Below, one piece after another: positions 27,823-50,627 of a stretch of 64,000 nucleotides of DNA (positions within the stretch are counted from its first letter, which is position 1; every line of letters starts with the position of its first letter). Both the position numbers and the translations under genes were made by a program. Where the stretch lies: contig CM059587.1 in assembly GCA_030407085.1 (NCBI GenBank), positions 45,978,501 to 46,042,500 of the forward strand. Reading direction: 5' to 3'. Origin of the DNA: Trichopria drosophilae. Lineage: Eukaryota > Arthropoda > Insecta > Hymenoptera > Diapriidae. A model generated the notes under the pieces. The model worked only from the letters and a program-made list of their open reading frames with translations, was not told the origin of the DNA and did no database searches.

Positions 27823-27830
27823 AAAATTTA
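27823..27830. repeat. 8-bp target-site duplication, left
   Basis: AAAATTTA directly precedes GGGGTGATAG. An identical octamer follows the right terminus at 50620-50627. Confidence 0.85.
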
Positions 27831-27842
27831 GGGGTGATAGCG

Positions 27843-27975
27843 AGTTGCCGAATATCGTTCTGCCGAAAATTCGTTTTGCCGACCGTCGTTTTGCCGAAAA
27901 TCGTTTTACCGAAATTCGATTTGCCGAAAATCGAGTTGACGAATGTCGATTTGCCGAACCGTCGTTTTGCCGACA
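27843..27975 (+). repeat. Subterminal 15-bp array, left (putative transposase sites)
   Basis: About nine tandem units of consensus TTTTGCCGAAAATCG. Each carries a CGA-(2 to 4 nt)-TCG dyad, e.g. CGAATATCG, CGACCGTCG and CGAATGTCG. A further isolated TTTGCCGAACG lies near 28198. The array begins 12 bp from the element end. Arrays like this next to a terminus often bind transposase; that function is inferred. Confidence 0.85.
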
Positions 27976-28708
27976 AATGTTCTTGCCCCAGTACTGCTCC
28001 GGTCGGTAAAGAAGAGTGTCCAGAGCAGGAGAATTCACATCCCCACCGCGTTCCAGCCACGGAGATTTCGACCCCTTCCAATTTCTCCTGCGCACTCACA
28101 CTACCAAAGTCGACGTGCCCGTGTGATATCCCCACCGCACTCACACTAGCAAAGTCGGCGTGCCTGTGTGAGCTCTGCAGACGCTGTTAAAAGGAAATTT
28201 GCCGAACGTATCATTCCGCGAATTTCTATACTATAAAGAACATAAATATAATATGTGGCTCCCGATTCGATCCTGAATTTTCATTTCTCTTATGATTTTG
28301 GAATAAATCTAGGCGCGAAATTCAAAATGAAGATTCGGTTAATTATTGTTATTTATCAGGAAAATTCATACTTTCATAAATCAAGTTGTTTTAATCGAAA
28401 TGAATTATTTTTTAATGTAAATTCAATTCGATAAAGAATAATTAATTAAAAATAATATTGATAATAAGATATTAATTTCATTGTATGAACAAAAATATGC
28501 TCAAAAATATGCTCAAAAATATGCTAGCCAAGTTTCAACTATCCTGAATAATTTTTTTTTTTCAATTTTTAAAATTATGTAATTTTCAATATTACATATA
28601 GATTGCTTTCTTTATTTCTCTTGTTAATGTTAATTATTTTTTCATTAAACAAATTTCCTATGCCGATGTTCATATACAACATTACTACATACATAATTTC
28701 GTAATGCT

Positions 28709-28777
28709 TGGTAGCCTAGTGGTTAAAGTGCTGGAATGTGGCGCAGTTTTTTGGTGTTCGCGCCCAGTACGGGACGA
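28709..28777 (+). repeat. tRNA-like SINE head, left arm copy 1
   Basis: TGGTAGCCTAGTGGTTAAAG resembles a pol III A box, and GTGTTCGCGCCCAGTACGGG a T-arm/B box. A T-run follows. The cloverleaf is not intact. The flanking sequence is an inverted, diverged copy of the repeats at 29347-30577. Confidence 0.6.
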
Positions 28778-29618
28778 TTTATTTTTTTTTTTTTTCAACA
28801 AAATTCCTGTTTTTCTTATTTATTTGCATAATAAAGATTGTGTATATGAAAATTATTTATCAGATAATTTAACATATGTTTATGTTTTCTTCATTTATTT
28901 TGGCTTTGAATTATTTTTATAAAACTATATCAGTTGTAACCCTAACTAAAAGAATCATTATTTTAATCATTTATTTTTCAAAAATATTTTTAACTTATTG
29001 ACATGTCTGAAATTCTTAATTTCTTAATTAATATATTAAAGAAACTTTACTTCTTTTAAGGAGATATGCAAAAGCAATGTATTAAATTTATTCATGCAAT
29101 CCAATATCAATTGTTATTGTATTTTAACCAATTCGAGTGTTTTTAATATTGAAAATCTATAAAATGCGATTCAGTCATATACATCGAACCAAAGAATTCT
29201 AAATTCAGATTTCAGAAGTTAATTAATAATTCTTTTTGTTCAACTTTTATGATTTAAGTTCAATTTATACATTTTTCACATAAAAAAAATCAAAATTTTA
29301 TTATTCGCGATTATAATACGGAAATTTTTGCTAATGGATGACAATAGGCAATGTATTGAATCCAACGAAACTGCTTTTATAATAATAATAATTCTTTTAA
29401 TTAGGATTGCAACTTAAATATATTTGTATAAAAATGCTGTAAAGCCAGAATTAATAATATTTAATGGAATAAATGTTGTGGGAATCAAAACAGAGTATTT
29501 TAGTATTTGCTTTAACATTACGTGTGCCAAAATAAATTTTAAAAATGTACTATTAAATTGTCCAATAAACAATTTGATAAGCATGATCGTTATTATGAAA
29601 AGAAAAAAGAAAAAAAAA

Positions 29619-29690
29619 TCGTCCCATATTGGGCGCGAACGCCAAAAATAATTTTAACTTTCCAACGCTTAGACCACTCGGCTACCAAAT
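29619..29690 (-). repeat. tRNA-like SINE head, left arm copy 2
   Basis: On the minus strand: TTGGTAGCCGAGTGGTCTAA (A box-like), then GGCGTTCGCGCCCAATATGG and a T-run. It is related to Ser/Leu-type tRNAs but lacks a proper anticodon arm. Confidence 0.6.
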
Positions 29691-30002
29691 GGTACGTAAA
29701 ATTTAACAAAAATCCTGCTAATAAAGTTTTACCCGACGGTACACTATATATTAAGAACAATTTCATTAATCAATTTATTTCATCGTTTTGCGAAAAGTAC
29801 CATATTGAAACGGATAAATATTACTTTATTCTTATATACAAATTCATAAAAAAAATACCTACTTCAATTGCATCAATAATCAAACATGGGCGTTGTTAAG
29901 AATTAAGGCGTTACATTATTTTGGCAGATGTAATGTTAAAGCAAATACTACAATACTCTGTTAAATAGGCAATGTATTGAATCTAACGAAACTGCTTTTT
30001 TA

Positions 30003-30040
<38 letters not shown>

Positions 30041-30265
30041 TCTTTTAATTAGGATTGCAACTTAAATATATTTGTATAAAAATGCTGTAAAGCCAGAATT
30101 AATAATATTTAATGGAATAAATGTTGTGGGAATCAAAGCAGAGTATTTTAGTATTTGCTTTAACATTACCTATGCCAAAATAAATTTTAAAAATGTACTA
30201 TTAAATTGTCCAATAAACAATTTGATAAGCATGATCGTTATTATGAAAATAAAAAAGAAAAAAAA

Positions 30266-30336
30266 TCGGCCCATATTGGGCGCGAACGCCAAAAAAAATC
30301 TTAACTTTCCAACGCTTAGACCACTCGGCTACCAAA
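30266..30336 (-). repeat. tRNA-like SINE head, left arm copy 3
   Basis: The same tRNA-like block as at 29619-29690, inside the second direct repeat, with small differences (GGGCCGA in place of GGGACGA). Confidence 0.6.
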
Positions 30337-30567
30337 TGGTACGTAAAATTTAACAAAAATCCTGCTAATAAAGTTTTACTCGATGGTAAACTATATATTA
30401 AGAACAATTTCATTAATCAATTTATTTGATCGTTTTGCGAAAAGTACCATATTAAAACGGATAAATATTACTTTATTTTTATATACAAATTCATTAAAAA
30501 AATACCTATTTCAATTGCATCAATAATCAAACATGGGCGTTGTTAAGAATTAAGGCGTTACATTATT

Positions 30568-33298
30568 TTGGCATATAATGGTGACATAAATGTGGACCTG
30601 CTAAGCAATAATGATCTTATTGACGAATACAAAAACATGTTCAGCTTGCTGGGATTTAATTCGGCAATAAATGCAATTACTCATCCTACAGGAAATAAAG
30701 GAACCTGGATAGACCATTTCTTTATAAAAACATGTAAGGAAATAAGTAAAATATCAGCTTATGTTGTAGAAAGTGACTTAATATCATATCACTATCCAAT
30801 CGTACTAACATGGCCAGGAAAGGACCTAGAAGCTAACGTATCGAGGAAGGACGGAACGTCGTACTCCCTTGTGAACTATAAAACTCTCGGATCAGCTCTA
30901 CGACAGGAAACCTGGGATGTAGTTTATAATGAGACCGATGTGAATTTAGTAACCGATCAATTCATCAAGAGACTCACTCAACACATTGAATCATCAACAG
31001 TAACCAGAATCGTTACTTCGCATCGAAAGAAGAAGGAGTGGTTATCTCAATACTTGATAGACCAAATGGGTAAACGTGATAAATTGTATAAAAAATGGAA
31101 ACAAATGACAAATAGTAGCTATAAGAACAAGGCTCGTGATGATTATATTAAAGCTAGGAATAATATAGTTAGGTTAGTTAAGGAAGTCAAAATGAGCAAC
31201 CACTCAAGAAAGGTAATGAAAGCAGGAACGGATAAACGGCAATTATGGAATGCAATAAATGAAATAGTAAAAGGTAATCCAACTAATAAAACAAACTTCA
31301 TTAATGTAAGGGTTAATGATAAGTTAGTATCTGACAAAAATGAAATAGCTACCGAATTTAATAAGTACTTTTCTCGAGTGGGAGCTGGTTTGGCAGCTAA
31401 GTTTAAAAATTCAGATCTAGTTACTAGTTGTAAAAAATCGGTGAAAAACTCGATAGTGTTATTCGATACAACACCAGGAGAAATCGCTAATTACATGAAA
31501 CGTCTCAAAATTAATAAGTCACCGGGTCATGACAAAATAACACCAATAATATACAGAAATTTTACAGAATTCCTATCAGGACCAGTATCATACATTATCA
31601 ACCTAGCCTTCTTAACTGCAATATGCCCTTTTCATTTCAAATATTCAATAATAATACCAATTTATAAAACAGGTGACAGGACGCAAATAGCAAATTAAAG
31701 ACCTATTTCCCTATTGCCTATAATTTCAAAACTTTTTGAAGTTAGTCTTAAAAATAGAATCTCAAAATTTTTAACTTTACATAGCATATTAAATAAAAAG
31801 CAATTTGGTTTCATACCGGGGAAATCCACTCAGACGGCTATTGAAGAATTAGCAAAGAATATATACTTAGCACTTGAACCCGGAGAACCTTGTGCAGCCA
31901 TATTCGTTGATTTGGCAAAAGCGTTTGATACGTTGGACCCTACAATATTAATTAAAAAACTGTATAATATTGGTGTAAGGGGTTTTCCATTAAAATTAAT
32001 TGAAAGTTATCTTTATAACCAGATACCAAAGTACTAAAGTAGGAAACAATATCAGCGAGAGATGTTTAATATCCCGTGGAGTACCGCAAGGGTCGATATT
32101 GGGACCTTTATTGTTCCTAATATATATTAACGACTTGTTTGATGTAGTTAACGATGAAGTACTGGCTTTTGCGGATGATACAGTGATATATATGAAAGGG
32201 AAATCGTGGAAGGACCTGTCTAAAACGGCGTCGGACAGGTTTAACTCGGTGTGCTCCTGGTTTGCCGACAATCATCTGACGGTAAACCCAGAGAAGACTG
32301 TAATCGTTCCATTTGGGTACTACCATGACAGTATACCAAGGAACTGGTGTGTCAAACGACATAGTAACTCGAGCTGTAATAGTAATTTTAACTACTGTCA
32401 ATGTCCTCAAATACGCCAAGAACTGCATACAAGGTACCTCGGCATAGAATTTGATTCGCGCATGAAATGGGACTATCACACCCAAATTATTCTAAATAAA
32501 CTTAGGTACTTAACTTATGCAGCAGTCAGGTTGAAAAAAATTCTAAACTATGATCAACTATTAAGTACATATCATGCTCTTTTTTCTTCCCGTCTTCACT
32601 ATGGAATTGTTGTTTGGGGTGGACTTTATAATAAATATTTAACTAAATTAGAAGTAATACAGAAGAGAATACTAAAAGTTATTCTAGGTAAAAATAGACT
32701 ATATCCGACATACAATATATATGCTGATCTTGAGTTATTAGATATAAGACAGAGATATGTTCAAGCTTCACTTACCTATGTCTTAAAAAATAATTTATTG
32801 TCGTTTAACACCAGCATGGTTCACACTAGGACGAAAAAATTAATTAACTAATGTACCTAAAAGGATCAAAACCGTTTCAAGACAATGTTACGATTACATA
32901 GCCGCTAAGGCATTCAATCGCTTTATTAATAATATGGAATACCCACGTGTAAAATTATCTGCGTTTATAAAATAAATATTATTGGCATTTTCGAGACTGA
33001 CATGCCGTGATTTGTATGAACAAATGTGCTTTGCGTAATCTCCACTTTATAATATCTATGACGTGAAAAATGTAAAATTTTGTTAGCACTGCGCAATCTT
33101 CACTTTATAATATCTACGACGTGAAAAATGTTAAATATTGTTAACATCTGCTTAGGTGACACTCATGGTCACCTTTTCTCACAGCCAGGCCTTGCCCTTG
33201 TGAGATACACATTCCAGTGTAAAGACACTATATGTAATATATATGCAATGTATAGTTGTACAGGAAATGTTAAATAAATTTTTATTCATTCATTCACA
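30568..33298 (+). pseudogene. Dead Jockey/CR1-group LINE, left copy
   Basis: A 5'-truncated LINE starts within the endonuclease domain (NGDINVDLL, then WIDHFFIKT). Reverse transcriptase follows: KSPGHDKITP, RPISLLPIISKLFE, KQFGFIPGKSTQTAI, FVDLAKAFDTLD, RGVPQGSILGPLLF, and the catalytic FADD near 32170. A TAA at 31696-31698 replaces the Tyr expected before RPIS. A +1 frameshift near 32020 separates the palm motifs. Both lesions recur in the right copy. The 3' UTR ends with ATTCATTCATTCA near 33298, so on this side the LINE runs 273 bp past the arm boundary. Confidence 0.9.
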
Positions 33299-34204
33299 AA
33301 GCCACCTTTTCAATTTCATACTAAAATACTGCATATGTTTTTCACTTTTCCATCATACATACTGTTCGAATTCACGTACACCAGATACGCGCTGATATGG
33401 GTAATTCTCCTGAATGGGACCCTGAAATGCGTCGCCATCGCTATTTCCAAGATTCGCAATGAAATTCCAATATAACGTATATTTTTTGCAATTTTGAATA
33501 AATTAATTCTTAAACTAGAATATATTAGCTAACTTTTGACGTATATATAGAAAATTTAATACGTCACTTTCATAGCTTAACACGCGTTTGCAAAATCGTT
33601 GCATGTTTTTTATAAAAATTGCATTTCATTGTAATTATTCATTATAACGTACAAAAAGAATACAAATAATTTTTTAAAATGCATGAAAAATAACTTTAAG
33701 CTATACTACTTATATTGTATAAGGCCAATTGAGTGTAAAAAATGTTTTTGATTTTATATAATTACTCAAACATTGTCATTTTTTGCGAGTAAAAATTCGG
33801 GTGATCTCCGAAGCCACCTATTTTTAACAATAAATATGTATTAACATACTAAAATCGAATCCTACGGCCTTAAAACTTAAGTACTAATTAGTCCTAAAGT
33901 GGTGTTAGAAGAATTTTTCGTTACAACATTCGATTTTTATCTAAAATCTAATAATATGTCGATTTGTGATCTCCGAAGCTTGGTGATCTCCGAAACCATT
34001 TTCGGGAACCGCATACAATGTTTATTTACCTGTATTTTTATAATTAATCATTCAAAACATTTTAAAAAATGTTACTGTAAACATATACGGGAGTTATAAA
34101 TCGTTTAAACGTATATTTTTTTATACTATGGATATAATTATAAACAACAATATGTCCAGAAAATACCTATTTAGTTGTAGGCATATTCGCTAAACTTTTA
34201 ATAT

Positions 34205-35005
34205 TTCCTTCCCTCAGATGAACTCGAAATTTGTTACTCATAAGTTTTTGGGGTCGCTGATTACGAATCCGTTGTCAGATTTTTGATATTCAAAATGGCG
34301 AATCCAATATGGCGGACCAATTTTGTAAAAGAGTTCCGATTTACCTGAAAATCTTTACTCGGGGGTTTTCGGGGTCGCTGTTCCCAAATGTAATGTTAGT
34401 TTTTCGAAATTTAAAATGACAACAAAATTATTAAAGCAGAATTTAGAGACCGGAAAATCACAGAACCATGCTGCAGAAGATCAAAAAGAAAAACTAAAAA
34501 CTAATTACGTGATTATCAAGTTCAGTATTTTTTATCAAGAAACAAGATCAGTATATTTTATTAAGAATCACGTTCGGCATTCTTTATCAAGAAATCATTT
34601 TTTATCATGTAAATATGTAAGCTAATAAATAAGGATTAATTATTAAAATATCATAAACTTGATTTTTTCTTATATTTTATAGTTCACGAAAGATAGTAAC
34701 ATATTTTCGAATGTCCATATTGTTATAATGAATCTTAAAATTCTACGACTATCAAGTTTCATATTAAATAAAAAAGTTTCGAATTTTGGTTCGCCATATT
34801 GGATCCGCCATTTTGAATTTAAAAAATCTGACAACAGATTCTTTATTAGGAACCCCAAAAATCCCCACCTAAACAAACTTCTAGTCAATCGAGCAATTTT
34901 TCTGTTTTTGGTCCGCCATATTGGATCCGCCATTTTGAATTTCAAATTTGACAACGGATTCGAAATCAGTGACCCCAAAAACCCCCGAGTAATACATTTC
35001 TAATT
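34205..35005. repeat. Foldback carrying the 'AAATGGCGGA' repeat
   Basis: TTTTTGGGGTCGCTGATTAC with AATGGCGAATCCAATATGGC (34240-34315) is mirrored by GCCATATTGGATCCGCCATT and AAATCAGTGACCCCAAAAA (34915-34980). The centre is near 34600. It lies inside the giant transposon. Confidence 0.7.
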
Positions 35006-37769
35006 AATTGGATAAAAGGAATAATTTGTAATACCAAGTTAAAACCATGTTAATATATTAACATTTAAGAAGGGCTATAAAATGTATAATAATAATAATG
35101 AATTTTGCGCAACATCATATTTTCACTTTAGAATATACCCTGAACATGTTTCAAAAGTAACAATATTTAATTTCATAAAAAAATGTTGCCTTGAAATTTT
35201 TTCGGAAACGGGTCCTTTTCAGTAGAATTACCAATATCTGATTGGCCTAGTTTCAATGTAACTAGATTCTGGTGATGCTCTTTACCAGAGATATGTTCTA
35301 TATATTTTTCGGCAATAATTGAGGGGTTATCATAAAATTTGCTTGCACCGACCCGGCCATAATTGAGGGGTTCTACTGTATATATTAGTTACAATTTTCC
35401 GTACAGAGCCTGAATTTGTCGAAATTGATTCAGTAATTTCTCATTTACGTACTTTTTTAGCATAAATCTCGACCTTATCGACCGATCCGACCAAAACACT
35501 GTTTGTTACTATATTACCGATTGATATGTCTAGCGTACAGGCTGCTGCCAACTGGTGAGTATACTTTAAATTCACATTTAATCATTGTATCTCGACAAGT
35601 AAGTGTCTCTTTGAAGTTTTTTCATATTTATACCTACTTTATAACGTTGTTCCCAAATTCGGAGAAAGACAATTCAGGTATGTAATCTTTGCAAGTATGC
35701 AGTATGTACTTTTTATTCGTCTCCAGTGTGCTTTTTTTCAAATTTGAATTCGCGGAAACCCAACAATCTGACACGAACCACTGACAAGATAGACATCGGA
35801 ATCAATGTTAAGAATAATTTTTTAACATTTTTTATTAATGCAATATTACAGTCAATATGGATCCAGAATCCGCTACAGGAAAATATTGAATGACTGCCGC
35901 AACTGGTTACATTATTGATGAACATTTTTTTTGTGTATAACGATACACTTGCATATTGAAGAACGAAATAATTCTTTTTTTTAGTCCTCCGGCCGTTAGG
36001 AATAAAATAATACAAGTAATTCCTGTGCATTTTCATACATCCGTGTAATTATTACAATCCAAATAGAAGCAAATTCCGTTTACAGGTTACAGGGTTCGGA
36101 AGAAATGGTACGATTGCTCTTCCATGGAACTGGCTTTCCAAGTATTTTTTTTTTAGGCTACATAATTCGAATGTAATTTTTCTGCATTTGCCAGAGATGC
36201 ATTTGTCCACATTGAAAATAAAATGAAAGTAGATTTTTCAATACTTTTATATCGTTTCATTCTTCGAAAAAAGAGACGCGCGTGCATACCCGGAAATGAA
36301 ATTCCTTTGCACCTAATTCCAGGAAAAACAGTGAATTGTGCTATTTCGTTCCGACGCCATATAATTTACCATATTCAAATGCATTTATGACAAATGTTGA
36401 TAATTTGGTTAGCATTATTACATATTATTTTGTAACTTTTTAAGGGGGTTCTAAAGTCTTTTGTCGATGAGGTAAAATTTTACGCGAAAAAAGAAAAAAA
36501 AATTACTAGGTATATTTCTGAAAATTCGGGCTCTTTTACGTCACTTCTAACCGTTATACACGATCTCATAAAAGGAATATAAATATTTCAAAAATCTGTT
36601 TCCATGAAGGTAATTGTTATCATTATACTATCATAACGCCTAAAAAATATAAAATAGTTTACTTCAAAATTAACGGAGAATTTTCGGAAATAGATGATTT
36701 TTTTCCGAAAATACTCGATCAAGTCTCAACTAATCTTTTTTCATATTTATTAAGCGCTATTATCTGATTATTCCAATTGTCTCCGTGAAAGCCGATTTTT
36801 AGAAAATCAATTCAGTCATGTACATACTAATAAATTCCTCCTTTATTGGCGAAGCAATTTAGAACCCTCGTAAGGGGAGGACAACCCGAAAATCGAGTCT
36901 ATGAAATACACCTGTGACAAATTTGAAAAAAAAATTGTTTTGACTCATCAATTTCTGCTCTAAAAGACATTTTTTGTTTTCATAATGTTACTACATTTTT
37001 TCAAATTAATTACAAAATTAAACGAAAATTAGGGTGAACATAAAAAACAATTTCTAAATATTTACATTCATCAATCTATTTTTTAAATATCCATTTTCTT
37101 CGAAAAAAAAGGATTTTTACAAAAATAATAATAATAATTTATTCAGGTTTATATTATACGATGTGGTTATTTATCAAGTATTTACAAAGGGTGATTTACA
37201 CAGTGCAAAATAACTTTCAATACTTATCCGCAATAATTTGAAAAATCTGCAGTCAAGGGTAGGACTGCCCTATATTTCTAATCGCAAATACTAACTACGT
37301 AAAAAAATTAATAAATTTAAAAAATAATAAAATACATACAATAATAATAATAAAAGACAAGATTCAAAAATTTGCCATTTTCTGTTTTTTTTTAAGCGAG
37401 TGAATATAAAATAATTTATGGGGATTAACACAGCAACACAAAAAAAAAATTATTGTTTCGGCCTGGCCGCATGGGTATCTCACTATGTATACATGTATAT
37501 CAAGTTTCAAACGTTGGAGTCCAACGAAAAAAAATTTTTCAGTCTTCGGCATAAGTAGACCTCCAAAACGATGAAAAACAAATTTTCGAACGCTGGGGAA
37601 TCGGTGGTGGGGGTAATAAAAAAAACTCAAAAACCAAAAAAAGTCGTCTAAAACCCGTAATTTATTTAGCATATGGAAGTTTTGATCGATCAATGATCGA
37701 AATTTTTTTTCTTTTTTTTTTTGTGTTTAAACAATTTAAAATAGCAAAATAATAACTTCCTATAAAGGA

Positions 37770-38073
37770 AAATCGATCAAGTAGAGGCGAATGAGACGTA
37801 AATTTTACAAGTCCGTAACTTTTGTAAAAATAATTTCTACCAGTTTTAACTAATAGAGGGTATTAATATAACCGTAATTAATCTACCAATAAAAGCATTA
37901 AGCTACAGTATGGTCGGAAAGTGTTCATTTTCGAACTTGGAGATTGTGAAAAATCGATCAAGAGCGGGCGGATGAGGCGTAAATATTACAAGTTCATAAC
38001 TTTTGTAAAAATAATTTCTACCAGTTTTAACTAATAGAGAGTATTAATATAACCGTAATTAATATACCATTAA
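37770..38073 (+). repeat. Two direct repeats (~120 bp each)
   Basis: AAATCGATCAAG, GAGGCG/GGGCGG and ATGAGACGTAA/ATGAGGCGTAA, then CTACCAGTTTTAACTAATAG and TATAACCGTAATTAAT, occur at about 37770-37886 and again at 37950-38073. Confidence 0.75.
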
Positions 38074-38234
38074 CCCGTTTCGTCCTGAAATGCCGTAAAT
38101 TTTGAATTCTTTTCATCAGGTGCTTCCTTAGGGAAAAAATCACTCAATCGTTTTGATATAACCATACCTATTGTATTTTTCCGCGAACAAAAATTGTGAA
38201 CTTTGAAAAAAATTGTTCAAATAATCGTATTTTT

Positions 38235-39535: not shown

Positions 39536-39580
39536 GTTTCGACCTATTTATTTTTTGTCCTCTTCAGATTAACTTGAGTT
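39536..39580 (-). repeat. LINE/SINE-type 3' stem-loop tail
   Basis: On the minus strand: AATCTGAAGAGGACAAAAAA, then AGGTCGAAACGTAATTT. The CTGAAGA...TCGAAACGT pattern is a common 3' hairpin of non-LTR elements. A similar tail is at 60082-60115. Confidence 0.45.
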
Positions 39581-40537
39581 AAAATAGACTCTTCTTATTT
39601 GTCAATGATTAAAATCAATAAATAAATAAATAAAAAACACTTCAATGGGTTCAGTCCATATTTAACAAGAACGAGGGATATACACAGACATCACGAGTAG
39701 ATATTAAAAAATTTAATGTTTTTTATAAAGAAAAATTTATTTGTTAAACAAAATTTTTTACATTTTTAATTGTAGCACGACTGAATTCTACGTTCTAAAA
39801 TTCGGAAAGAAAAATTGATTTCGAATTCGTTAAAGGGGTTTTTCGTGCAGTTCATTTTTTGGTTGCTCCTCTCCTTTTGGAGATTCCAGTCGGAACAGTC
39901 GGTAAGGTAGTAATTTACCTTGATAATCACACATTAAAAATAATTGAATCGATTTTTCAAAAATGTGGGCTCAGTACTGAAAATTGTAAACAACATATCA
40001 TGTCTTAAAAAATATGGAATACATTGGCTAAGAATTCGTCTAGAATCATTCGGAATAGATGATTTTTCCTTATTCCGCCGGACGGTTTCTTATCAAACTC
40101 GCTTATCATTTTTCAGCACATCATGTGTAATGTTTACAATTTACAGTGTATAGCCCTTTTTTGGGTAATAGATTAATAAAATAGATTCGATCTATATAAT
40201 ATCACTTTTTTACCGTCCATTGTTGTCTTATCGACTAAGCCGAATGGAATAAGGTCGCTGATTATGAATCTGAATTCCATAAATTTAAAACAACGGACAC
40301 AATTAACAGGGTTTATAGTTAATGCGTAAACTGGTCATATGTTAGGATTAATAGGTTCTCTGGTGCATTGTGAACGATGCAGAACGGTGAAGGGATTCAT
40401 CTTCCACCTCCATCAACAATACTTCAGAGAATTGTTGATGGTTACGTGTACAATCACGACAACGTTAATGAGAAGAGGAATAAAACGTAAGCATTTTGCC
40501 AGTGTCAGGTTACGCTCGAGAGCCCTTATACCTTGCT

Positions 40538-40818
40538 ATGGGGTATTTTTATCCGAGACAAGCAATTAAACAGGAAAATGATTTAGCAATTAATGTACCT
40601 TTCAGATACGTCAGATGCCAAGACCGCAAAAATTGTAAAGGACGCGGGTATTTTTTGGGAGACATGTCGCCCGAAAACTTTACATTGACACACATCCATA
40701 CGCACGTATCGAAACCTAGTGCACGAAGAGAGGCCCAATTTCGCAATGCACTCGCACAAAGTGTCATGAACAACACCCACGAAGGAAACAAGCTCATATA
40801 TGACAGGGTCCGCATAGA
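40538..40818 (+). CDS. MULE transposase exon 1 (FLYWCH zinc finger)
   Basis: The frame opens at least from 40505, and the first in-frame ATG is at 40538. It encodes a FLYWCH-like finger: LYLAMGYFYP, then FRYVRCQDRKNCKGRGYF with the Cys pair, and THIHTH with the His pair. It ends with donor GA|GTAAGT after 40818, phase 2, and joins exon 2 in frame as DHPEAAVELTF. The true start may be upstream: an ATG at 40377 opens a well-formed 37-codon frame (MQNGEGIHLPPPSTILQ), but it is one frame off and no good intron bridges the gap. A frameshift or a missed exon is therefore possible. The FLYWCH-MULE pairing is typical of Phantom elements. Confidence 0.75.
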
Positions 40819-41100
40819 GTAAGTTGAAGGTAATGAGGCTCACTCGCAAAATGAAATACGACAGTCAATTTCATAACAAATGATATTTGAAGTACTAATC
40901 TTTTTTACTACGATGCTGAAGGCAGCCACCTGGGAAATCCAGTAGCGTAGTAATAAGTCTTCAGAACATATACTTCTTTATCCCTACAATTATTGAAACC
41001 CTATAATTTCAGCACTTTTGCGAGTGAGTCTCCTCAAAGGCAACAGTTTATATTCAATTTAATTACAATCGAACATCATTACATCAAAAGTTTTTATCAG

Positions 41101-41458
41101 TCATCCAGAAGCTGCTGTGGAGCTTACGTTTAAAAGAGTGGAGTCCATGATGAACCGTATTAGGAAGAAATTCATTCCTCCCTCTCCTCGCACTTTTGCC
41201 GATCTTATGATCAGTTTGCGGGATGATGAAAGGTGGAACAACGTTCTCATTTATGGCAACAGGAGGTTACGTCTATTTACGTGCGAGATATTAGGAAAAC
41301 CAAATGCCATTTGGGGAGATCCGGAGTACATTGCACTCTTCCAGCGAGACGCCGACGACGATGATATTATTTTCCTCGTTGATGGGACGTTTAAGGTTGT
41401 CCCCAACATTGAAGGGGCTTACCAATTGGTCACAGTAATGTGTTTTCGATTCGGGAAG
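41101..41458 (+). CDS. MULE transposase exon 2 (first catalytic Asp)
   Basis: The acceptor TTTTTATCAG precedes 41101, and donor AAG|GTACTG ends it at 41458, phase 0. It encodes a helical linker (RIRKKFIPPSPRTF, DDERW) and then the start of the MULE RNase H-like fold, DDIIFLVDGTFKVVPN. The Asp of DGTF (about residue 188 from the 40538 ATG) is the expected first catalytic residue. There are no stops within the exon. Confidence 0.82.
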
Positions 41459-42406
41459 GTACTGTATTATATCTGTTCATAATTGAATTGAACTGTATAG
41501 GAATTCAGAAACATTTCTGAGGTAATTTATTAGAACTAAACTATTTCTTATATTATTGGCTACTGAATAGGTGATGTTGGGTAGATTATGTTACTAAAAT
41601 TCAGTTAAAATAGATACAGAACGTACAAATTGAATTACCGGTTACAGATATGACAGATTCAGGTTCTCTAACCTGTTATTCTATGCATAACTTCTGCATC
41701 CATTTTTAACAGTTCCTAGCAGCAGAATGTATCGAAAATCGTTTATTCCGAAGCCAATAACATAAGAAATAATTCAGTACAAATAAATTACGTGAAAAAC
41801 GTTTCGTAATTCCCGAAAATTGTCGAAAAATTTTTTTGCTCTTCAGCCCTCATATATTTGCGCGCTAGGGCCCATAACGGTGCTCTGTGCTGGATTGTTT
41901 TTGAGCTACAACACCGGAAGTGCTTTATTATTACAAACTACGGCTTTAATTTTAATGTTACAACAATGTCATAAATACGCTAGTAAGCTATAATATTCGT
42001 AGATGGCGGGGAAACTTACTTTGGGTGGTTATGATTTTTTTCGCGTCGCAAAAAAAAATATTGAAATATGACCTTTTTATTAGGTATTTTGGATGATTAA
42101 TTCTATAATTAATTACGCCGCTGATAATACACTAATTCGAAAAAAGGAAGTTTCCCCACGATTCTGATATCAAGCTGATTATTTTAAGCCTCATTGATCA
42201 TGTTTTATGCCGATTTCGAGTCGCAGTTTGTAATGAATGAAACCAACGTGAGCGCCCACTGTAATAGCGACTTCTCCTGGTTGTCAAGTCTTACAAATAT
42301 AGTTCGACGTTATGCCACATACAAATTTCAGGTGGCGTGACACTCGCGATACTGTCCTCCGGTAAAATTGCAACGCACTTTTAAGTATTAACACATTCTT
42401 ATGCAG

Positions 42407-42607
42407 GCCCTTCCCCTTTGTTGGGCACTGATGTCCGGAAAGACGGAGGCGGAATATACCGAAGTATTTCGGGTCATCAGGCGCCAAGTGCTGGGAAATC
42501 TTCATCCAACGGTTATAATGACCGATTATGAGAAGGGGCTGCAAAATGCCTTGCAGAACGAATTCCCTGGGGCTGATCTAGATGGATGTTTCTTCCATTA
42601 TGCACAA
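42407..42607 (+). CDS. MULE transposase exon 3 (second catalytic Asp)
   Basis: The acceptor CTTATGCAG precedes 42407, and donor CAA|GTAGGT follows 42607, phase 0. Joined to exon 2 it reads FGK then ALPLCWALMSGKTEAEY, the classic MULE core strand/helix. Next come VIMTDYEKGLQNAL with the second Asp (about residue 253) and DGCFFHYAQA with the family's C..H motif. It is intact. Confidence 0.85.
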
Positions 42608-42960
42608 GTAGGTACATTTATATAAACGTTGTAAAACGAAAATATAAACAGCATTTTATGTACCGGTAGAAATGACCTAAAACAGGCTATTATACCACCA
42701 TCCGCCATCGAGCTATAATGTACTCATTATTCGCCTAGGGTAATTGAGTAATGACTCCATTATTGCCCGCTGTGTCGTGCCGCAGAATGTTCTACTTTAG
42801 CCCCTCTCTACGCGTGAATAAAACGAAGTTGTGTCTATGTGACATCAAATATGGTGTACACCATGGGAGATATATCATCTTTCCTCGCGACGATTGCCGT
42901 AATGACACGCCTATATCTCCCTCGATGTATAATATACTATTATATACGTAATTGTTACAG

Positions 42961-43303
42961 GCATTGTTTAGGCGGTGTCTAAAATTGCGGATATCCTCAT
43001 CAATAAAAGCCACGACTTGCCCAGAAGGCAATGAGGTGTTTCGGCGAATAGTATCACTTGCCTTACTTCCGGCAGATCGAATTCTACAGGGATTCAGATA
43101 CGTGGTTAGAAACACCTCCGAGGACGTTCAGCTGGCTCTGCAGCCATTTCTTACGTATTATAACGACTACTGGTTGCAATTAGTCACTCCTGAAAAATTT
43201 TCCGTGTACGGAAAAATTGTCCGAACGAACAACGCAATTGAATCATATCATCGTCAGTTGTCGCTGAAGGTTCCCAAACATCCGACAGCCTGGAAATTTT
43301 TTA
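42961..43303 (+). CDS. MULE transposase exon 4 (catalytic Glu region)
   Basis: The acceptor TTGTTACAG precedes 42961, and donor TTA|GTTAAG follows 43303, phase 1. It reads ALFRRCLKLR, then FRRIVSLALLPADRI, a FLTYYNDYWL helix, and RTNNAIESYHRQL. In MULE transposases of this type the TNN..E..H segment carries the third acidic residue (here about Glu374). The exon is intact and in frame with exon 3. Confidence 0.83.
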
Positions 43304-43557
43304 GTTAAGATTAATTACTTTCAAATTATTTTTATTTAACGAAGTTGTATGGTAAATAAATTTAACATCGAGATTCCGATTAAACTTTATAAGAAGTTCA
43401 AATATGCTATTAAGATGCTTCTGCTAATATTTGATGAGGCTAGGGTACTTATAAGAAATGTTATCCGCGATTAGATTTTTCCTTACGCCTTTCATACGTA
43501 TACTGAAAGTATTTCTGTTTTTCGAGTTCATATAATCATGAAGTTCAATTTTCGTAG

Positions 43558-43779
43558 GCATGATGAACAATGTACAAAGTGCTGCAATGAGTGATTTGGC
43601 TCAGCTTCGAAATGGACGTCGAGTAACTCGAAAATGTATAAAATCACTCATCAGGAACCATGACCTACAAGCTATTTGGAAACTGTACGAAGAAACCTTT
43701 TCGTTTGAAGACCTGTTGATCCAAGCATCCAATTTAGTGTCAAATCCAGTTGCCAACTTAATATTTTTCGAAACTGAAG
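43558..43779 (+). CDS. MULE transposase exon 5
   Basis: The acceptor TTTTCGTAG precedes 43558. The split codon A|GC gives Ser and then MMNNVQSAAMSDLAQL, a basic helix with RRVTRKCIKSLI and a hydrophobic C-terminal helix. It is taken to end at donor GAAG|GTGACT (43779, phase 1). If not spliced there, the frame would stop at 43809-43811, giving a shorter protein. This post-catalytic helical region has no named motif. Confidence 0.7.
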
Positions 43780-44559
43780 GTGACTACATTTTTTTATATT
43801 GTACTTTTTAGTGAAAAGTCAGATACGTGGACTGTGGTGCAATCAAAATAATAGAAATTGAAATTATCTCGTTTCGCTGGCTTGGTTGTTATTAGATTAT
43901 TCGTTTTTGTGAGTCCTTCTTTAAACTTAATCATTTTTAATACTTCAATCACGACTGACCCGTTTATTTTGAATATTTCTCAATATTTATAAATTTATTT
44001 TATAAAGCCAATGGTTTTGAATACTTCTGAAAGCGTTTGTGGGACTAATTTTAAAATGTTCTCAATGCTTCGACATCAAGTCGTGTGCGTTAGTACCCGA
44101 AAATCTTTTAAATCTTCTGGAAGCAGTTTTTTATTTTTCCAATACCTCTCATACGCGAATACTTTTTTATTCTTCCGGAGTATCCTTAAGTATAAACATT
44201 TTTTAATTTTTTAACTATCAAGATTTCGCGTATCTCTTAGCGTTTTCGAAATATTTTAGAATTTAAAAAATATTTATTTCTACAAATGTTCAAAATTTAT
44301 CTGCATGTATGCGTTAATCGACTCGAGGTTAACCCTCCTTTTTACAACCTCCAAAATTTTTTTGATTTCGCGTATCTTTTGCCATTTTCGAGATATGAGA
44401 TAATTTTCAAAATTTTCGAAATTCGTTTGTGTGTATCCGTTAATAGACTCAGATTTCGCGAATCTCGTGACGTTATCCAGATAATTAAGAATGTTTAACA
44501 ATTTTAACGTGAAACACAAATATCATATTACATTGCTGACATTGGTCGATAGTGGCAGA

Positions 44560-44650
44560 CCAGTAGTCTGTGTCACGCGCGGACATTATTTCTAGTTAAG
44601 CATCCTTGTTGGGAAACACTACTTGGATAGGTGACCACTTGAGAACAGGT
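44560..44650 (+). pseudogene. 5S rRNA-like fragment
   Basis: The sequence contains TAGTTAAGCATCCTTG, GGGAAACACTACTTGGATAG and GTGACCACTTGAGAACA. This matches the order of the internal pol III promoter and 3' half of 5S rRNA (GTTAAGCA, then TACTTGGATGGGTGACC, then CTTGGGAACA). The 5' half is poorly preserved. It is either a 5S pseudogene or the head of a 5S-derived (SINE3-type) repeat. It lies in the last predicted intron of the transposase gene. Confidence 0.65.
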
Positions 44651-45046
44651 CATTTAAGAAAAATAAGTTAAGAGTATAATTCAACTAAATACAAACTAAT
44701 ATAATTAAAAATAAAAAACAAATTGTTTGTTTTTATAAAAAGAGGAAAAAATTTAAGAACAAAAAAGTTAACATTTTCTATGTTTCTTAATTCTTACTGA
44801 AGAAAGGGAAGGATTCAGATAGAGAATTCGGAAGTATTGGAAATTTCTATGCTTCTCAATTATTTTGGTTTGCTGGTTCCTTAAAATCACAATTCAGTAT
44901 GACCTATTAGGCGTTAATGGACTCAATTTTTTTTCTCAAATATTACAAATGTAACCATCAGGATTGTGTCTAATATTTCGTGATACAAACTTCTTATTTT
45001 TAACTAACTAATGATATCCTTATACGTGCTGTTTAATGCGTTGAAG

Positions 45047-45291
45047 CAAATAGCGAGGTTGCACCCCAAGGAGAGATTGCGGCCCAAGAACAGGTTGCAG
45101 ACCAACAACATGTTGCGGACCAAGAAGAAGTCGCGGTCCAAGAAGAGGTTGCGGCCCAAGGAGAGGTTCCAGCCCAAGAAGATGTTGTGTCCCAACAAGA
45201 GATTACAGACGTTGTTGCAAACGCGCAAAGAGACTGTTCATCGCCATTATCTGAATTGCAGTACGAAGATATTGAATATCTTGAATTTTAA
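45047..45291 (+). CDS. MULE transposase exon 6 (acidic Q/E-rich tail), predicted
   Basis: The candidate acceptor TTGAAG precedes 45047. Joined in phase 1 it reads ANSEVAPQGEIAAQEQVADQ, then further six-residue VA.QE-type repeats, and ends DCSSPLSELQYEDIEYLEF before a TAA at 45289-45291. A purposeful-looking acidic, repeat-rich C-terminus directly before the right arm suggests a real terminal exon. The acceptor is weak, though, and the alternative frame (Arg/Lys-rich, open to about 45328) cannot be excluded from sequence alone. With exon 6 the six exons total 549 codons plus stop from the 40538 ATG. Confidence 0.5.
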
Positions 45292-45414
45292 AATAATCGT
45301 AACTGCATTTGTTACTTATAAACTTTAAATTTTATAATTTGTTAAATTACAAATATAACTATTAACGTTAATGTAAAATGAAAATTATGTCTGCTAAATC
45401 AGTCATTATAGAAA

Positions 45415-47872
45415 ATTTGTTCATACAAATCACGGCATGTCAGTCTCGAAAATGCCAATAATATTTATTTTATAAACGCAGATAATTTTACACGTGGGTA
45501 TTCCATATTATTAATAAAGCGATTGAATGCCTTAGCGGCTATGTAATCGTAACATTGTCTTGAAACGGTTTTGATCCTTTTAGGTACATTAGTTAATTAA
45601 TTTTTTCGTCCTAGTGTGAACCATGCTGGTGTTAAACGACAATAAATTATTTTTTAAGACATAGGTAAGTGAAGCTTGAACATATCTCTGTCTTATATCT
45701 AATAACTCAAGATCAGCATATATATTGTATGTCGGATATAGTCTATTTTTACCTAGAATAACTTTTAGTATTCTCTTCTGTATTACTTCTAATTTAGTTA
45801 AATATTTATTATAAAGTCCACCCCAAACAACAATTCCATAGTGAAGACGGGAAGAAAAAAGAGCATGATATGTACTTAATAGTTGATCATAGTTTAGAAT
45901 TTTTTTCAACCTGACTGCTGCATAAGTTAAGTACCTAAGTTTATTTAGAATAATTTGGGTGTGATAGTCCCATTTCATGCGCGAATCAAATTCTATGCCG
46001 AGGTACCTTGTATGCAGTTCTTGGCGTATTTGAGGACATTGACAGTAGTTAAAATTACTATTACAGCTCGAGTTACTATGTCGTTTGACACACCAGTTCC
46101 TTGGTATACTGTCATGGTAGTACCCAAATGGAACGATTACAGTCTTCTCTGGGTTTACCGTCAGATGATTGTCGGCAAACCAGGAGCACACCGAGTTAAA
46201 CCTGTCCGACGCCGTTTTAGACAGGTCCTTCCACGATTTCCCTTTCATATATATCACTGTATCATCCGCAAAAGCCAGTACTTCATCGTTAACTACATCA
46301 AACAAGTCGTTAATATATATTAGGAACAATAAAGGTCCCAATATCGACCCTTGCGGTACTCCACGGGATATTAAACATCTCTCGCTGATATTGTTTCCTA
46401 CTTTAGTACTTTGGTATCTGGTTATAAAGATAACTTTCAATTAATTTTAATGGAAAACCCCTTACACCAATATTATACAGTTTTTTAATTAATATTGTAG
46501 GGTCCAACGTATCAAACGCTTTTGCCAAATCAACGAATATGGCTGCACAAGGTTCTCCGGGTTCAAGTGCTAAGTATATATTCTTTGCTAATTCTTCAAT
46601 AGCCGTCTGAGTGGATTTCCCCGGTATGAAACCAAATTGCTTTTTATTTAATATGCTATGTAAAGTTAAAAATTTTGAGATTCTATTTTTAAGACTAACT
46701 TCAAAAAGTTTTGAAATTATAGGCAATAGGGAAATAGGTCTTTAATTTGCTATTTGCGTCCTGTCACCTGTTTTATAAATTGGTATTATTATTGAATATT
46801 TGAAATGAAAAGGGCATATTGCAGTTAAGAAGGCTAGGTTGATAATGTATGATACTGGTCCTGATAGGAATTCTGTAAAATTTCTGTATATTATTGGTGT
46901 TATTTTGTCATGACCCGGTGACTTATTAATTTTGAGACGTTTCATGTAATTAGCGATTTCTCCTGGTGTTGTATCGAATAACACTATCGAGTTTTTCACC
47001 GATTTTTTACAACTAGTAACTAGATCTGAATTTTTAAACTTAGCTGCCAAACCAGCTCCCACTCGAGAAAAGTACTTATTAAATTCGGTAGCTATTTCAT
47101 TTTTGTCAGATACTAACTTATCATTAACCCTTACATTAATGAAGTTTGTTTTATTAGTTGGATTACCTTTTACTATTTCATTTATTGCATTCCATAATTG
47201 CCGTTTATCCGTTCCTGCTTTCATTACCTTTCTTGAGTGGTTGCTCATTTTGACTTCCTTAACTAACCTAACTATATTATTCCTAGCTTTAATATAATCA
47301 TCACGAGCCTTGTTCTTATAGCTACTATTTGTCATTTGTTTCCATTTTTTATACAATTTATCACGTTTACCCATTTGGTCTATCAAGTATTGAGATAACC
47401 ACTCCTTCTTCTTTCGATGCGAAGTAACGATTCTGGTTACTGTTGATGATTCAATGTGTTGAGTGAGTCTCTTGATGAATTGATCGGTTACTAAATTCAC
47501 ATCGGTCTCATTATAAACTACATCCCAGGTTTCCTGTCGTAGAGCTGATCCGAGAGTTTTATAGTTCACAAGGGAGTACGACGTTCTGTCCTTCCTCGAT
47601 ACGTTAGCTTCTAGGTCCTTTCCTGGCCATGTTAGTACGATTGGATAGTGATATGATATTAAGTCACTTTCTACAACATAAGCTGATATTTTACTTATTT
47701 CCTTACATGTTTTTATAAAGAAATGGTCTATCCAGGTTCCTTTATTTCCTGTAGGATGAGTAATTGCATTTATTGCCGAATTAAATCCCAGCAAGCTGAA
47801 CATGTTTTTGTATTCGTCAATAAGATCATTATTGCTTAGCAGGTCCACATTTATGTCACCATTATATGCCAA
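45415..47872 (-). pseudogene. Dead Jockey/CR1-group LINE, right copy
   Basis: Minus-strand mirror of the left-arm LINE, with the same TAA before RPISLLP and the same +1 shift before RGVPQGS. One residue differs by eye (KDRTSY here, KDGTSY in the left copy). The 3' UTR is cut at the arm boundary, so the last 273 bp of the LINE seen in the left copy are missing. Shared lesions show that the LINE had already decayed before the arm was copied. Confidence 0.9.
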
Positions 47873-48105
47873 AATAATGTAACGCCTTAATTCTTAACAA
47901 CGCCCATGTTTGATTATTGATGCAATTGAAATAGGTATTTTTTTAATGAATTTGTATATAAAAATAAAGTAATATTTATCCGTTTTAATATGGTACTTTT
48001 CGCAAAACGATCAAATAAATTGATTAATGAAATTGTTCTTAATATATAGTTTACCATCGAGTAAAACTTTATTAGCAGGATTTTTGTTAAATTTTACGTA
48101 CCATT

Positions 48106-48174
48106 TGGTAGCCGAGTGGTCTAAGCGTTGGAAAGTTAAGATTTTTTTTGGCGTTCGCGCCCAATATGGGCCGA
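48106..48174 (+). repeat. tRNA-like SINE head, right arm copy 3
   Basis: Mirror of 30266-30336; TTGGTAGCCGAGTGGTCTAA and GGCGTTCGCGCCCAATATGG are in plus orientation here. Confidence 0.6.
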
Positions 48175-48399
48175 TTTTTTTTCTTTTTTATTTTCATAAT
48201 AACGATCATGCTTATCAAATTGTTTATTGGACAATTTAATAGTACATTTTTAAAATTTATTTTGGCATAGGTAATGTTAAAGCAAATACTAAAATACTCT
48301 GCTTTGATTCCCACAACATTTATTCCATTAAATATTATTAATTCTGGCTTTACAGCATTTTTATACAAATATATTTAAGTTGCAATCCTAATTAAAAGA

Positions 48400-48449
<50 letters not shown>

Positions 48450-48761
48450 AAAAGCAGTTTCGTTAGATTCAATACATTGCCTATTTAACAGAGTATTGTA
48501 GTATTTGCTTTAACATTACATCTGCCAAAATAATGTAACGCCTTAATTCTTAACAACGCCCATGTTTGATTATTGATGCAATTGAAGTAGGTATTTTTTT
48601 TATGAATTTGTATATAAGAATAAAGTAATATTTATCCGTTTCAATATGGTACTTTTCGCAAAACGATGAAATAAATTGATTAATGAAATTGTTCTTAATA
48701 TATAGTGTACCGTCGGGTAAAACTTTATTAGCAGGATTTTTGTTAAATTTTACGTACCAGT

Positions 48762-48830
48762 TGGTAGCCGAGTGGTCTAAGCGTTGGAAAGTTAAAATTA
48801 TTTTTGGCGTTCGCGCCCAATATGGGACGA
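48762..48830 (+). repeat. tRNA-like SINE head, right arm copy 2
   Basis: Mirror of 29619-29690. One base differs upstream (CCAGTTGG versus CCATTTGG). Confidence 0.6.
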
Positions 48831-49672
48831 TTTTTTTTTCTTTTTTCTTTTCATAATAACGATCATGCTTATCAAATTGTTTATTGGACAATTTAATAGT
48901 ACATTTTTAAAATTTATTTTGGCACACGTAATGTTAAAGCAAATACTAAAATACTCTGTTTTGATTCCCACAACATTTATTCCATTAAATATTATTAATT
49001 CTGGCTTTACAGCATTTTTATACAAATATATTTAAGTTGCAATCCTAATTAAAAGAATTATTATTATTATAAAAGCAGTTTCGTTGGATTCAATACATTG
49101 CCTATTGTCATCCATTAGCAAAAATTTCCGTATTATAATCGCGAATAATAAAATTTTGATTTTTTTTATGTGAAAAATGTATAAATTGAACTTAAATCAT
49201 AAAAGTTGAACAAAAAGAATTATTAATTAACTTCTGAAATCTGAATTTAGAATTCTTTGGTTCGATGTATATGACTGAATCGCATTTTATAGATTTTCAA
49301 TATTAAAAACACTCGAATTGGTTAAAATACAATAACAATTGATATTGGATTGCATGAATAAATTTAATACATTGCTTTTGCATATCTCCTTAAAAGAAGT
49401 AAAGTTTCTTTAATATATTAATTAAGAAATTAAGAATTTCAGACATGTCAATAAGTTAAAAATATTTTTGAAAAATAAATGATTAAAATAATGATTCTTT
49501 TAGTTAGGGTTACAACTGATATAGTTTTATAAAAATAATTCAAAGCCAAAATAAATGAAGAAAACATAAACATATGTTAAATTATCTGATAAATAATTTT
49601 CATATACACAATCTTTATTATGCAAATAAATAAGAAAAACAGGAATTTTGTTGAAAAAAAAAAAAAAATAAA

Positions 49673-49741
49673 TCGTCCCGTACTGGGCGCGAACACCAAA
49701 AAACTGCGCCACATTCCAGCACTTTAACCACTAGGCTACCA
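49673..49741 (-). repeat. tRNA-like SINE head, right arm copy 1
   Basis: Mirror of 28709-28777, followed by a slightly different homopolymer length. Confidence 0.6.
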
Positions 49742-50474
49742 AGCATTACGAAATTATGTATGTAGTAATGTTGTATATGAACATCGGCATAGGAAATTTG
49801 TTTAATGAAAAAATAATTAACATTAACAAGAGAAATAAAGAAAGCAATCTATATGTAATATTGAAAATTACATAATTTTAAAAATTGAAAAAAAAAAATT
49901 ATTCAGGATAGTTGAAACTTGGCTAGCATATTTTTGAGCATATTTTTGAGCATATTTTTGTTCATACAATGAAATTAATATCTTATTATCAATATTATTT
50001 TTAATTAATTATTCTTTATCGAATTGAATTTACATTAAAAAATAATTCATTTCGATTAAAACAACTTGATTTATGAAAGTATGAATTTTCCTGATAAATA
50101 ACAATAATTAACCGAATCTTCATTTTGAATTTCGCGCCTAGATTTATTCCAAAATCATAAGAGAAATGAAAATTCAGGATCGAATCGGGAGCCACATATT
50201 ATATTTATGTTCTTTATAGTATAGAAATTCGCGGAATGATACGTTCGGCAAATTTCCTTTTAACAGCGTCTGCAGAGCTCACACAGGCACGCCGACTTTG
50301 CTAGTGTGAGTGCGGTGGGGATATCACACGGGCACGTCGACTTTGGTAGTGTGAGTGCGCAGGAGAAATTGGAAGGGGTCGAAATCTCCGTGGCTGGAAC
50401 GCGGTGGGGATGTGAATTCTCCTGCTCTGGACACTCTTCTTTACCGACCGGAGCAGTACTGGGGCAAGAACATT

Positions 50475-50607
50475 TGTCGGCAAAACGACGGTTCGGCAAA
50501 TCGACATTCGTCAACTCGATTTTCGGCAAATCGAATTTCGGTAAAACGATTTTCGGCAAAACGACGGTCGGCAAAACGAATTTTCGGCAGAACGATATTC
50601 GGCAACT
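50475..50607 (-). repeat. Subterminal 15-bp array, right
   Basis: Mirror of the array at 27843-27975. It ends 12 bp before the right terminus CTATCACCCC. Confidence 0.85.
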
Positions 50608-50619
50608 CGCTATCACCCC

Positions 50620-50627
50620 AAAATTTA
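50620..50627. repeat. 8-bp target-site duplication, right
   Basis: AAAATTTA, identical to 27823-27830. Confidence 0.85.

Follow-up and report, generated by a model that had tools for sequence, protein, structure and literature searches.

A 22.8-kb Mutator-superfamily transposon in Trichopria drosophilae and the probable secondary origin of its giant inverted arms

In the window, a stretch of 64,000 nucleotides of the Trichopria drosophilae genome, two nearly identical 5.2-kb arms face each other across a core with a transposase gene. Did this structure insert as one unit, and how did it come by such arms? We put at roughly 90% the probability that it is a Mutator-superfamily (MULE) DNA transposon inserted as a single 22.8-kb unit, whose arms are secondary and subject to arm-to-arm copying.

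Anatomy of the element and its transposase gene

The window element spans 27831-50619 (22,789 bp), with inverted arms of 5,195 bp (left) and 5,205 bp (right). In a self-BLAST, 27824-33025 matches 50626-45415 at 99.73% identity over 5,212 aligned bp; in the alignment, the arms are told apart by 3 substitutions and by 2 indels, one in a T-run and one of 9 bp (TAA). The termini are GGGGTGATAG at 27831 and CTATCACCCC at 50619, and the 8-bp target-site duplication AAAATTTA adjoins both. The preliminary description had reported a 22.8-kb unit with nearly identical 5.2-kb inverted arms, precise ends between identical octamers and a MULE transposase gene between the arms; each of these observations is borne out.

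27823..27830, no strand: left target-site duplication AAAATTTA, found as a single octamer in uninterrupted target repeats
27831..33025, + strand: left giant inverted arm, 5,195 bp, with its inner boundary at the same position in copies A-F and J
27845..27987, + strand: subterminal 15-bp tandem repeats at the left end, 9.3 copies of TTGCCGAAAATCGTT
28081..29906, + strand: arm segment resembling a separate dispersed repeat family (92-95%)
29379..30573, + strand: 548-bp repeat in two direct copies (29379-29926 and 30027-30573)
30577..33200, + strand: 5'-truncated LINE passenger, both limits approximate
33026..45414, + strand: core, 12,389 bp
45415..50619, - strand: right giant inverted arm, 5,205 bp, a left-end copy terminating inside the 3' part of the LINE
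50477..50609, - strand: subterminal 15-bp tandem repeats at the right end
50620..50627, no strand: right target-site duplication AAAATTTA

The left subterminal repeats are presumed to be the original TIR and a putative transposase-binding zone, by analogy with the account of Muta1/Muta5 in the part of PMC5225508 used here. The transposase would recognise the 15-bp repeats, which lie in the outermost 155 bp or so at both ends, and cut at GGGG/CCCC, giving 8-bp duplications. Both the 15-bp and the 548-bp repeats vary in number between arms, and copy B has three 548-bp units on the left and a single one on the right. Terminus DNA folds no better than its shuffles (z=0.12).

The transposase gene lies in the core on the + strand, from 40377 to about 45291. 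Its product matches the Pfam MULE domain (PF10551) at E=3.3e-16 with 60 bits, against a cut-off of 27.6. The reading frame of the window element is open through six exons, and the regions of the catalytic motifs can be aligned with five homologues.

40377..40486, + strand: exon 1, start codon at 40377-40379
40606..40818, + strand: exon 2, with a weak FLYWCH match together with exon 1
41101..41458, + strand: exon 3, VDGTF, first catalytic Asp
42407..42607, + strand: exon 4, MTDYEKG (presumed second Asp) and GCFFHY
42961..43303, + strand: exon 5, RTNNAIE (presumed catalytic Glu)
43558..43779, + strand: exon 6
45054..45291, + strand: probable last exon, in which an 18-bp minisatellite encodes a Q/E-rich tail; splice junction provisional

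The minisatellite occupies 45055-45201 (8.2 copies), and its placement inside the last exon hinges on the provisional junction. The FLYWCH match (E=0.0053, 17.3 bits) lies under the Pfam cut-off of 23.6, and a THAP domain, part of the P-type transposase of Galileo, is absent among the five Pfam matches of the transposase at E<=0.1. Five other core ORFs that were scanned have no Pfam match. A Pfam search restricted to the larger ORFs (these five, three from the left arm, and the LINE and transposase ORFs) returned no viral-type gene such as a DNA polymerase or capsid. ARAGORN detects no tRNA in the left arm and Rfam, at gathering thresholds, has no match in the whole window; the suspicion that the arms hold tRNA-derived SINEs was thus not confirmed.

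Copies, duplications and empty sites

Nine paired copies occur in the genome besides the window element. Both termini are present in nine copies, eight of which, the window element among them, are flanked by a perfect 8-bp duplication, different each time; the exception is copy G. The 900-bp flanks of these eight have no match between copies. In copy I the right terminus is indistinct, most of the core is missing and the right arm carries 8.6 kb of additional sequence. The preliminary description proposed a search for copies by their end, and had allowed that other copies might end differently: other copies with giant arms and the same ends do exist elsewhere in the genome, but the 10-mer GGGGTGATAG alone is undiagnostic. 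It gave 589+573 matches, versus 481+508 for the reversed pattern, and sits in another repeat family in four of the first eight loci examined (L003-L005 and L008); a longer terminus is diagnostic.

Empty target sites, which it had also suggested looking for, were found for all three insertions tested. Joined-flank queries were used for A, J and H, and target repeats were counted when they reached at least 70 bases on both sides of the junction. Of the 70 rows for A, 40 show such an uninterrupted repeat; the figures are 37 of 40 rows for J and 15 of 25 for H. Three target repeats of the A site were fetched; two have the identical single octamer, and the third differs by one base.

A palindromic segmental or assembly duplication, containing a MULE by chance, is a very improbable source of this structure. 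Copy G is indeed such a palindrome, with no 8-bp duplication and with about 400 bp of flank inverted as well. The eight copies with precise ends, different perfect duplications and unrelated flanks speak against it, as do the three empty sites and the scattered positions of the arm differences. An assembly duplication of the right arm in particular is disfavoured because the two arms are not identical and are found again at unrelated sites.

The copies also record how the transposon moved. A core deletion (41177/45229) is common to C and F, and a 1-bp gap in exon 5, causing a frameshift, to D and E; therefore units of about 17-23 kb moved whole. The transposase is broken in B, C, D, E and F. 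We infer that transposase acted in cis or in trans, and activity was presumably recent. The cores of A and B differ at 17 of 11,851 aligned sites, all at separate places, and core divergence from A is 0.14-0.85%.

Origin and evolution of the arms

The LINE has a reverse transcriptase (30577-32851) with one inherited stop, and its 3' part crosses from arm into core at the left boundary (33025) only. A provisional statement that this LINE is absent elsewhere above 69% identity was wrong: three copies at 95-96% lie outside the element. They have no arm sequence past their 5' truncation, and all three run past 33025 into core-left, not core-right, sequence. Since independent LINE copies span the left arm/core boundary, the right arm was copied from the left end, the direction of the founding copy being left to right. 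The LINE and other repeats would have accumulated at the left end, after which the right end would have been replaced by a copy of it, in a tract that stops arbitrarily inside the LINE. The preliminary description had not foreseen giant arms as the secondary growth of a shorter end.

Two complete inverted ends do flank unrelated sequence, as they would if two separate elements in opposite orientation had moved jointly by their outer ends. This composite is the least probable of the alternatives considered here: the inner-boundary sequences of A-F and J hold no second terminus, and the LINE links the left arm to the core without a break.

After their founding the arms evolve in concert. When core-left and core-right arms are constrained to separate clades, the likelihood falls by 244.7 lnL (AU p=6e-8), and grouping by side is rejected. 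Both arms of copy I contain the same 1.6-kb insertion, with 5 differences in 1,680, missing from the other ten stretches (A-H, J and K). An insertion of 4,565 bp in copy F is confined to one arm. In A, as in B, a small indel state peculiar to that copy occurs in both arms. The right arm of copy B extends, behind a 468-bp remnant, through a further 1.2 kb copied from the left core. Between D and E, arm variants are swapped relative to the core. A simple flip of the core fits eight inner variants; a 15-bp repeat indel at the end unit misfits unless it is recurrent or a second exchange occurred. We read this pattern as probable arm-arm exchange, in that general sense only. Homogenisation is incomplete: the arms of C differ at 14 of 3,209 sites, and the left arm of C differs from the F arms at only 6 and 8. 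Support for grouping C with F (71) and D with E (74) is weak.

The arms could be alike merely through the youth of the copies, with no arm-to-arm copying after the founding duplication. The low core divergence from A agrees with this, and some arm differences outlast transposition in D/E and C/F. We nevertheless judge it improbable. The arm duplication is older than the split of A-F and J, yet by-side grouping is rejected; moreover, the private insertion of I and the indel states of A and B each occupy both arms.

Alternatively, the giant arms may be under selection for a function, as binding platforms or as a source of hairpin RNA, and not be passengers. The inner arm is retained at both ends in seven elements, in keeping with such a role. 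We find it unlikely, if somewhat less so than mere youth: the inherited stop of the LINE is common to all 12 arms read, 3 of these 12 have a further frame change, and the arms of G and H are shorter.

We favour instead passenger arms maintained by later, continuing inter-arm repair. Such repair would spread insertions from arm to arm, could extend an arm into the core and would keep the arms similar within an element lineage. With a slight preference over doubt, we propose to regard this MULE lineage as arm-ratchet transposons. Their arms would grow without set limit, as one end is overwritten by the other, insertions spread to both and repair runs into the core; the outer 155 bp would keep the unit mobile, and foreign retroelements would ride and multiply along.

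Relation to known transposons

The element has a MULE-type DDE domain, 5.2-kb terminal inverted repeats and, in all copies with both termini but G, perfect 8-bp duplications, within the 8-11 bp of MULEs. Foldback/Galileo-like elements, too, are characterised by long TIRs whose internal tandem repeats differ from copy to copy. The comparisons below refer to the portions of the cited papers used here.

Muta1 and Muta5, MULEs of Aedes aegypti, resemble it in their 8-9-bp duplications, in TIRs made of a short terminal motif and nine 12-15-bp subterminal tandem repeats, in a transposase of two or three exons and in non-autonomous derivatives with mainly the ends in common; they measure 3.2-3.5 kb with TIRs of 145-151 bp, however, against 22.8 kb and 5.2-kb arms (PMC5225508). 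Phantom (group 20 in PMC6446971) is likewise an invertebrate MULE, with 8-10-bp duplications and FLYWCH in some members. Aphid members have a minisatellite after the transposase ORF, comparable to the 18-bp repeat here, whereas the listed TIR range, descriptive and not a definition, is 18-613 bp (PMC6446971). The preliminary description called the element Phantom-like; the minisatellite accords with that possible placement, although the FLYWCH match falls below the Pfam threshold. Tm1, a Mutator/Foldback element of root-knot nematodes, has a Phantom-like transposase inside TIRs of about 14-bp tandem repeats, but these are short, with 1-9 units (PMC3169594).

A 2026 survey of arthropod MULEs gives 1,875-9,972 bp for complete elements and TIRs of 13-1,193 bp in its text, with a maximum of 1,527 bp in its table (PMC13359780). 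Its elements are of the same superfamily and have G/C-rich termini, and the present one is about twice the size of the largest. As 5 kb was added on each side of a hit, a 22.8-kb element was hardly recoverable there, and because surveys of this design would miss such elements, they may be commoner than believed.

Galileo of Drosophila has long, internally repetitive and variable TIRs. Its authors proposed that one TIR is repaired from the other and internal sequence copied into the arm (PMC3573991); such copying is seen here in the extension of copy B and the founding of the right arm. Galileo differs in its P-superfamily transposase, its longest TIR of about 1.26 kb and the non-autonomous state of its longest-TIR copies (PMC3573991). 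Teratorn differs by a piggyBac-like transposase, herpesvirus genes, a size of 41-182 kb and 18-bp TIRs (PMC6431247).

An element of cut-and-paste type, about 17-23 kb long, has thus spread in an animal genome. Its copies form a natural series (left end onto right, one-arm insertion, two-arm insertion, arm extension and swapped arm variants), which bears on the long-proposed growth of Foldback-like arms through arm-to-arm repair.

Several other loci are related to the element. A transposase locus on C2 (67% amino-acid identity) shows neither giant arms nor clear ends in the 18 kb fetched. A divergent relative on C1 at 67.89 Mb (94-97% in the core) keeps the LINE at right, and the left stretch fetched matched no arm. 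A C1 pair at 126.67/126.70 Mb has part of the outer arm in common and nothing more, and L042 and L043 share arm sequence with the element but have other ends.

Anatomy of the element and its copies

The window copy of the giant-armed MULE element, copy A, resides in a 936-Mb genome, of which the window covers C6:45978501-46042500. Its arms, the terminal inverted repeats, were delimited by self-comparison.

27831-50619: MULE element, window copy (A), 22,789 bp
27831-33025: left arm, matching the right arm
45415-50619: right arm, matching the left arm

The preliminary description of a 22.8-kb unit with 5.2-kb near-identical arms is borne out: the arms are 99.73% identical across 5,212 bp, their alignment showing three substitutions and two indels, one of 1 bp in a T run and one of 9 bp (TAA). 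Its precise ends and identical flanking octamers are also real, with termini GGGGTGATAG/CTATCACCCC and AAAATTTA on either side.

The search for further copies with the same ends that it proposed was productive. With a 669-bp outer-end query (best 40 of 286 candidates scored, hence a lower bound) and a 521-bp arm-segment query (best 40 of 231), we found at least ten paired copies, named A to J, and fetched the sequence of all nine outside the window. Eight of the ten are complete at both termini and flanked by perfect 8-bp duplications, and no 900-bp flank of these eight matches that of another.

Octamer duplications and lengths of the eight copies
A: AAAATTTA, 22.8 kb
B: AAATCCGA, 24.0 kb
C: CATGTCGC, 16.9 kb
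D: CGTACAGA, 30.8 kb (~8 kb extra or rearranged core)
E: AAAATGGG, 22.8 kb
F: CACCCTGT, 20.5 kb (4.6 kb insertion)
H: TAATATTT, 7.1 kb (near-palindrome, 3.3-kb arms)
J: GTCGAAAC, 22.5 kb

Copy G, a 5.3-kb near-perfect palindrome (C6:52538200-52543515), has both element ends; it lacks an 8-bp duplication, and ~400 bp of its flank is inverted on both sides. It may be a hairpin-type duplication or an assembly palindrome. Copy I (C6:46440183 onward), 434 kb from the window copy, is rearranged: its core is mostly gone, and its right arm is split by ~8.6 kb, with no clear terminus. A further stretch, K, holds a single arm. An inner-arm-end search, all 28 candidates scored, located the arm's inner end on both sides in seven elements.

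Other repeats occur in and around the element. It sits within a dispersed repeat, with a 164-bp unit present three times at its right flank (50651-51135). Positions 28081-29906 are 92-95% shared with a separate dispersed inverted-repeat family, which has ~3-3.6 kb between its repeats and outer parts that differ from the giant element. Imperfect palindromes of 0.7-0.8 kb, ~83% complementary, lie at 38237-39078 and 52910-53629. Positions 60220-60771 and three fetched stretches (L003-L005) match a family with 280-bp-spaced repeats; since this family carries GGGGTGATAG internally, the 10-mer is a poor probe.

Transposase and movement as a unit

The MULE transposase claimed between the arms is present. 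Its six exons (40377-43779) lie inside the core, with GT/AG junctions and an open spliced frame, and Pfam identifies a MULE domain (E=3.3e-16); a FLYWCH match is below threshold. A candidate last exon at ~45054-45291, its splice junction provisional, would add a Q/E-rich tail encoded by an 18-bp minisatellite. The catalytic-motif regions align with those of five homologues, three of them from Prorops nasuta, Trichogramma kaykai and Hydra vulgaris. Within intron 3, stretches 41507-41848 and 41897-42319 have 71-78% matches at 5 and 26 further scored loci, respectively, and are probably nested small elements.

Compared with the window copy, exons 1-6 of copy J are gap-free (coverage of exon 6 begins at its fourth base). 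Copy B lacks part of exon 6, copies D and E have in common a 1-bp gap in exon 5, and the transposase of C and F stops within exon 3. Related MULE transposase families, at ~67% amino-acid identity, occur at C5:82811415, C3:87010734, C2:84732927 and C4:68387007. The C2 locus, the one of the four fetched, showed no giant arms in the 18 kb covered; it holds relatives of the 38237-39078 palindrome.

Empty sites, a check suggested earlier, were sought for three of the eight insertions (A, J and H), using queries that fused the two flanks across a single octamer. All three gave uninterrupted matches, extending at least 70 bases either side of the junction: 40 of 70 rows for A, 37 of 40 for J (two of the other three being J's own flanks) and 15 of 25 for H (the other ten being H's two flanks and eight partial matches). 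The J and H sites are known from search matches, and those of A also from fetched sequence, where two of three read AAAATTTA then CCC and one AAAATTTT then CCC.

Copies C and F, at different genomic places, have a core deletion in common, D and E have a frameshift in common, and the cores of A and B differ at 17 of 11,851 sites. Units of ~17-23 kb therefore moved after those changes; C/F and D/E were probably mobilized by transposase supplied in trans. The element is real, multi-copy and moved as a unit.

It is still a MULE, and exceeds the size of those found described in the literature searched. In the accessible text of PMC13359780, a survey in which hits were extended by 5 kb, complete arthropod MULEs measure 1,875-9,972 bp, with TIRs up to 1,193 bp in the text and 1,527 bp in a table. 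The portions seen of other reports give 18-613 bp for TIRs of Phantom, a MULE group (PMC6446971), describe 12-15-bp subterminal repeats (PMC5225508) and discuss arm expansion (PMC3573991, PMC3169594). MULE arms above 1.6 kb were not found in this search, most subscription journals being outside its reach.

Origin and concerted evolution of the arms

The left arm/core boundary at 33025 is crossed by a 5'-truncated LINE, which encodes a reverse transcriptase with one stop common to all 12 arms read. Three copies outside the element, 95-96% identical (C4:120793932, C3:133432282 and C6:46207576), each have their own 5' truncation, beyond which arm sequence was not found. Past the equivalent of 33025, all three continue into core-left, not core-right, sequence. 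The LINE therefore landed on the left side, and the right arm arose as a left-end copy that breaks off within the LINE. Copies A-F and J have their inner boundary at the identical place (with a one-base difference beside it in J), so the right-arm copying preceded the split of these copies. Copy B repeats this event: its right arm, starting from a 468-bp remnant, carries on as inverted, copied left-core sequence up to window 34235. The extension fits the repair scheme proposed for Galileo, a Drosophila P-superfamily element, in the available part of PMC3573991.

Had the arms evolved apart since founding, the core-left arms would form one clade. In our tree (partial right arms for C and F; J right arm without its first block), the A/B arms cluster by element (support 100), as do those of J (100); the D/E (74) and C/F (71) groupings are weak. 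A side-wise constraint is rejected, at a cost of 244.7 lnL (AU p=6e-8), and a constraint by element lineage is not rejected in the topology test. Arms within an element differ at 1/3419 (A), 4/3431 (B), 14/3209 (C), 4/3425 (D), 6/3425 (E), 7/2296 (F) and 13/3138 (J) sites, against 9-35 differences between lineages. Copy C is the exception, its own arms differing more than its left arm does from those of F (6 and 8).

Individual variants add to this picture. A and B each have one private indel state in both arms. Both arms of copy I carry a poly-A-ended ~1.6-kb insertion that begins at the same point, the two versions differing at 5 of 1,680 positions; this insertion is absent from the ten other stretches examined (A-H, J, K). 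In copy F, a 4,565-bp insertion occupies the left arm only. Between D and E, eight variants in alignment columns 700-1537 show the reverse of the core's phase, and the end unit agrees with it; further inward, two substitutions and a TAA-repeat indel distinguish the elements, each state occurring in both arms of its element. This pattern points to arm-arm exchange plus conversion.
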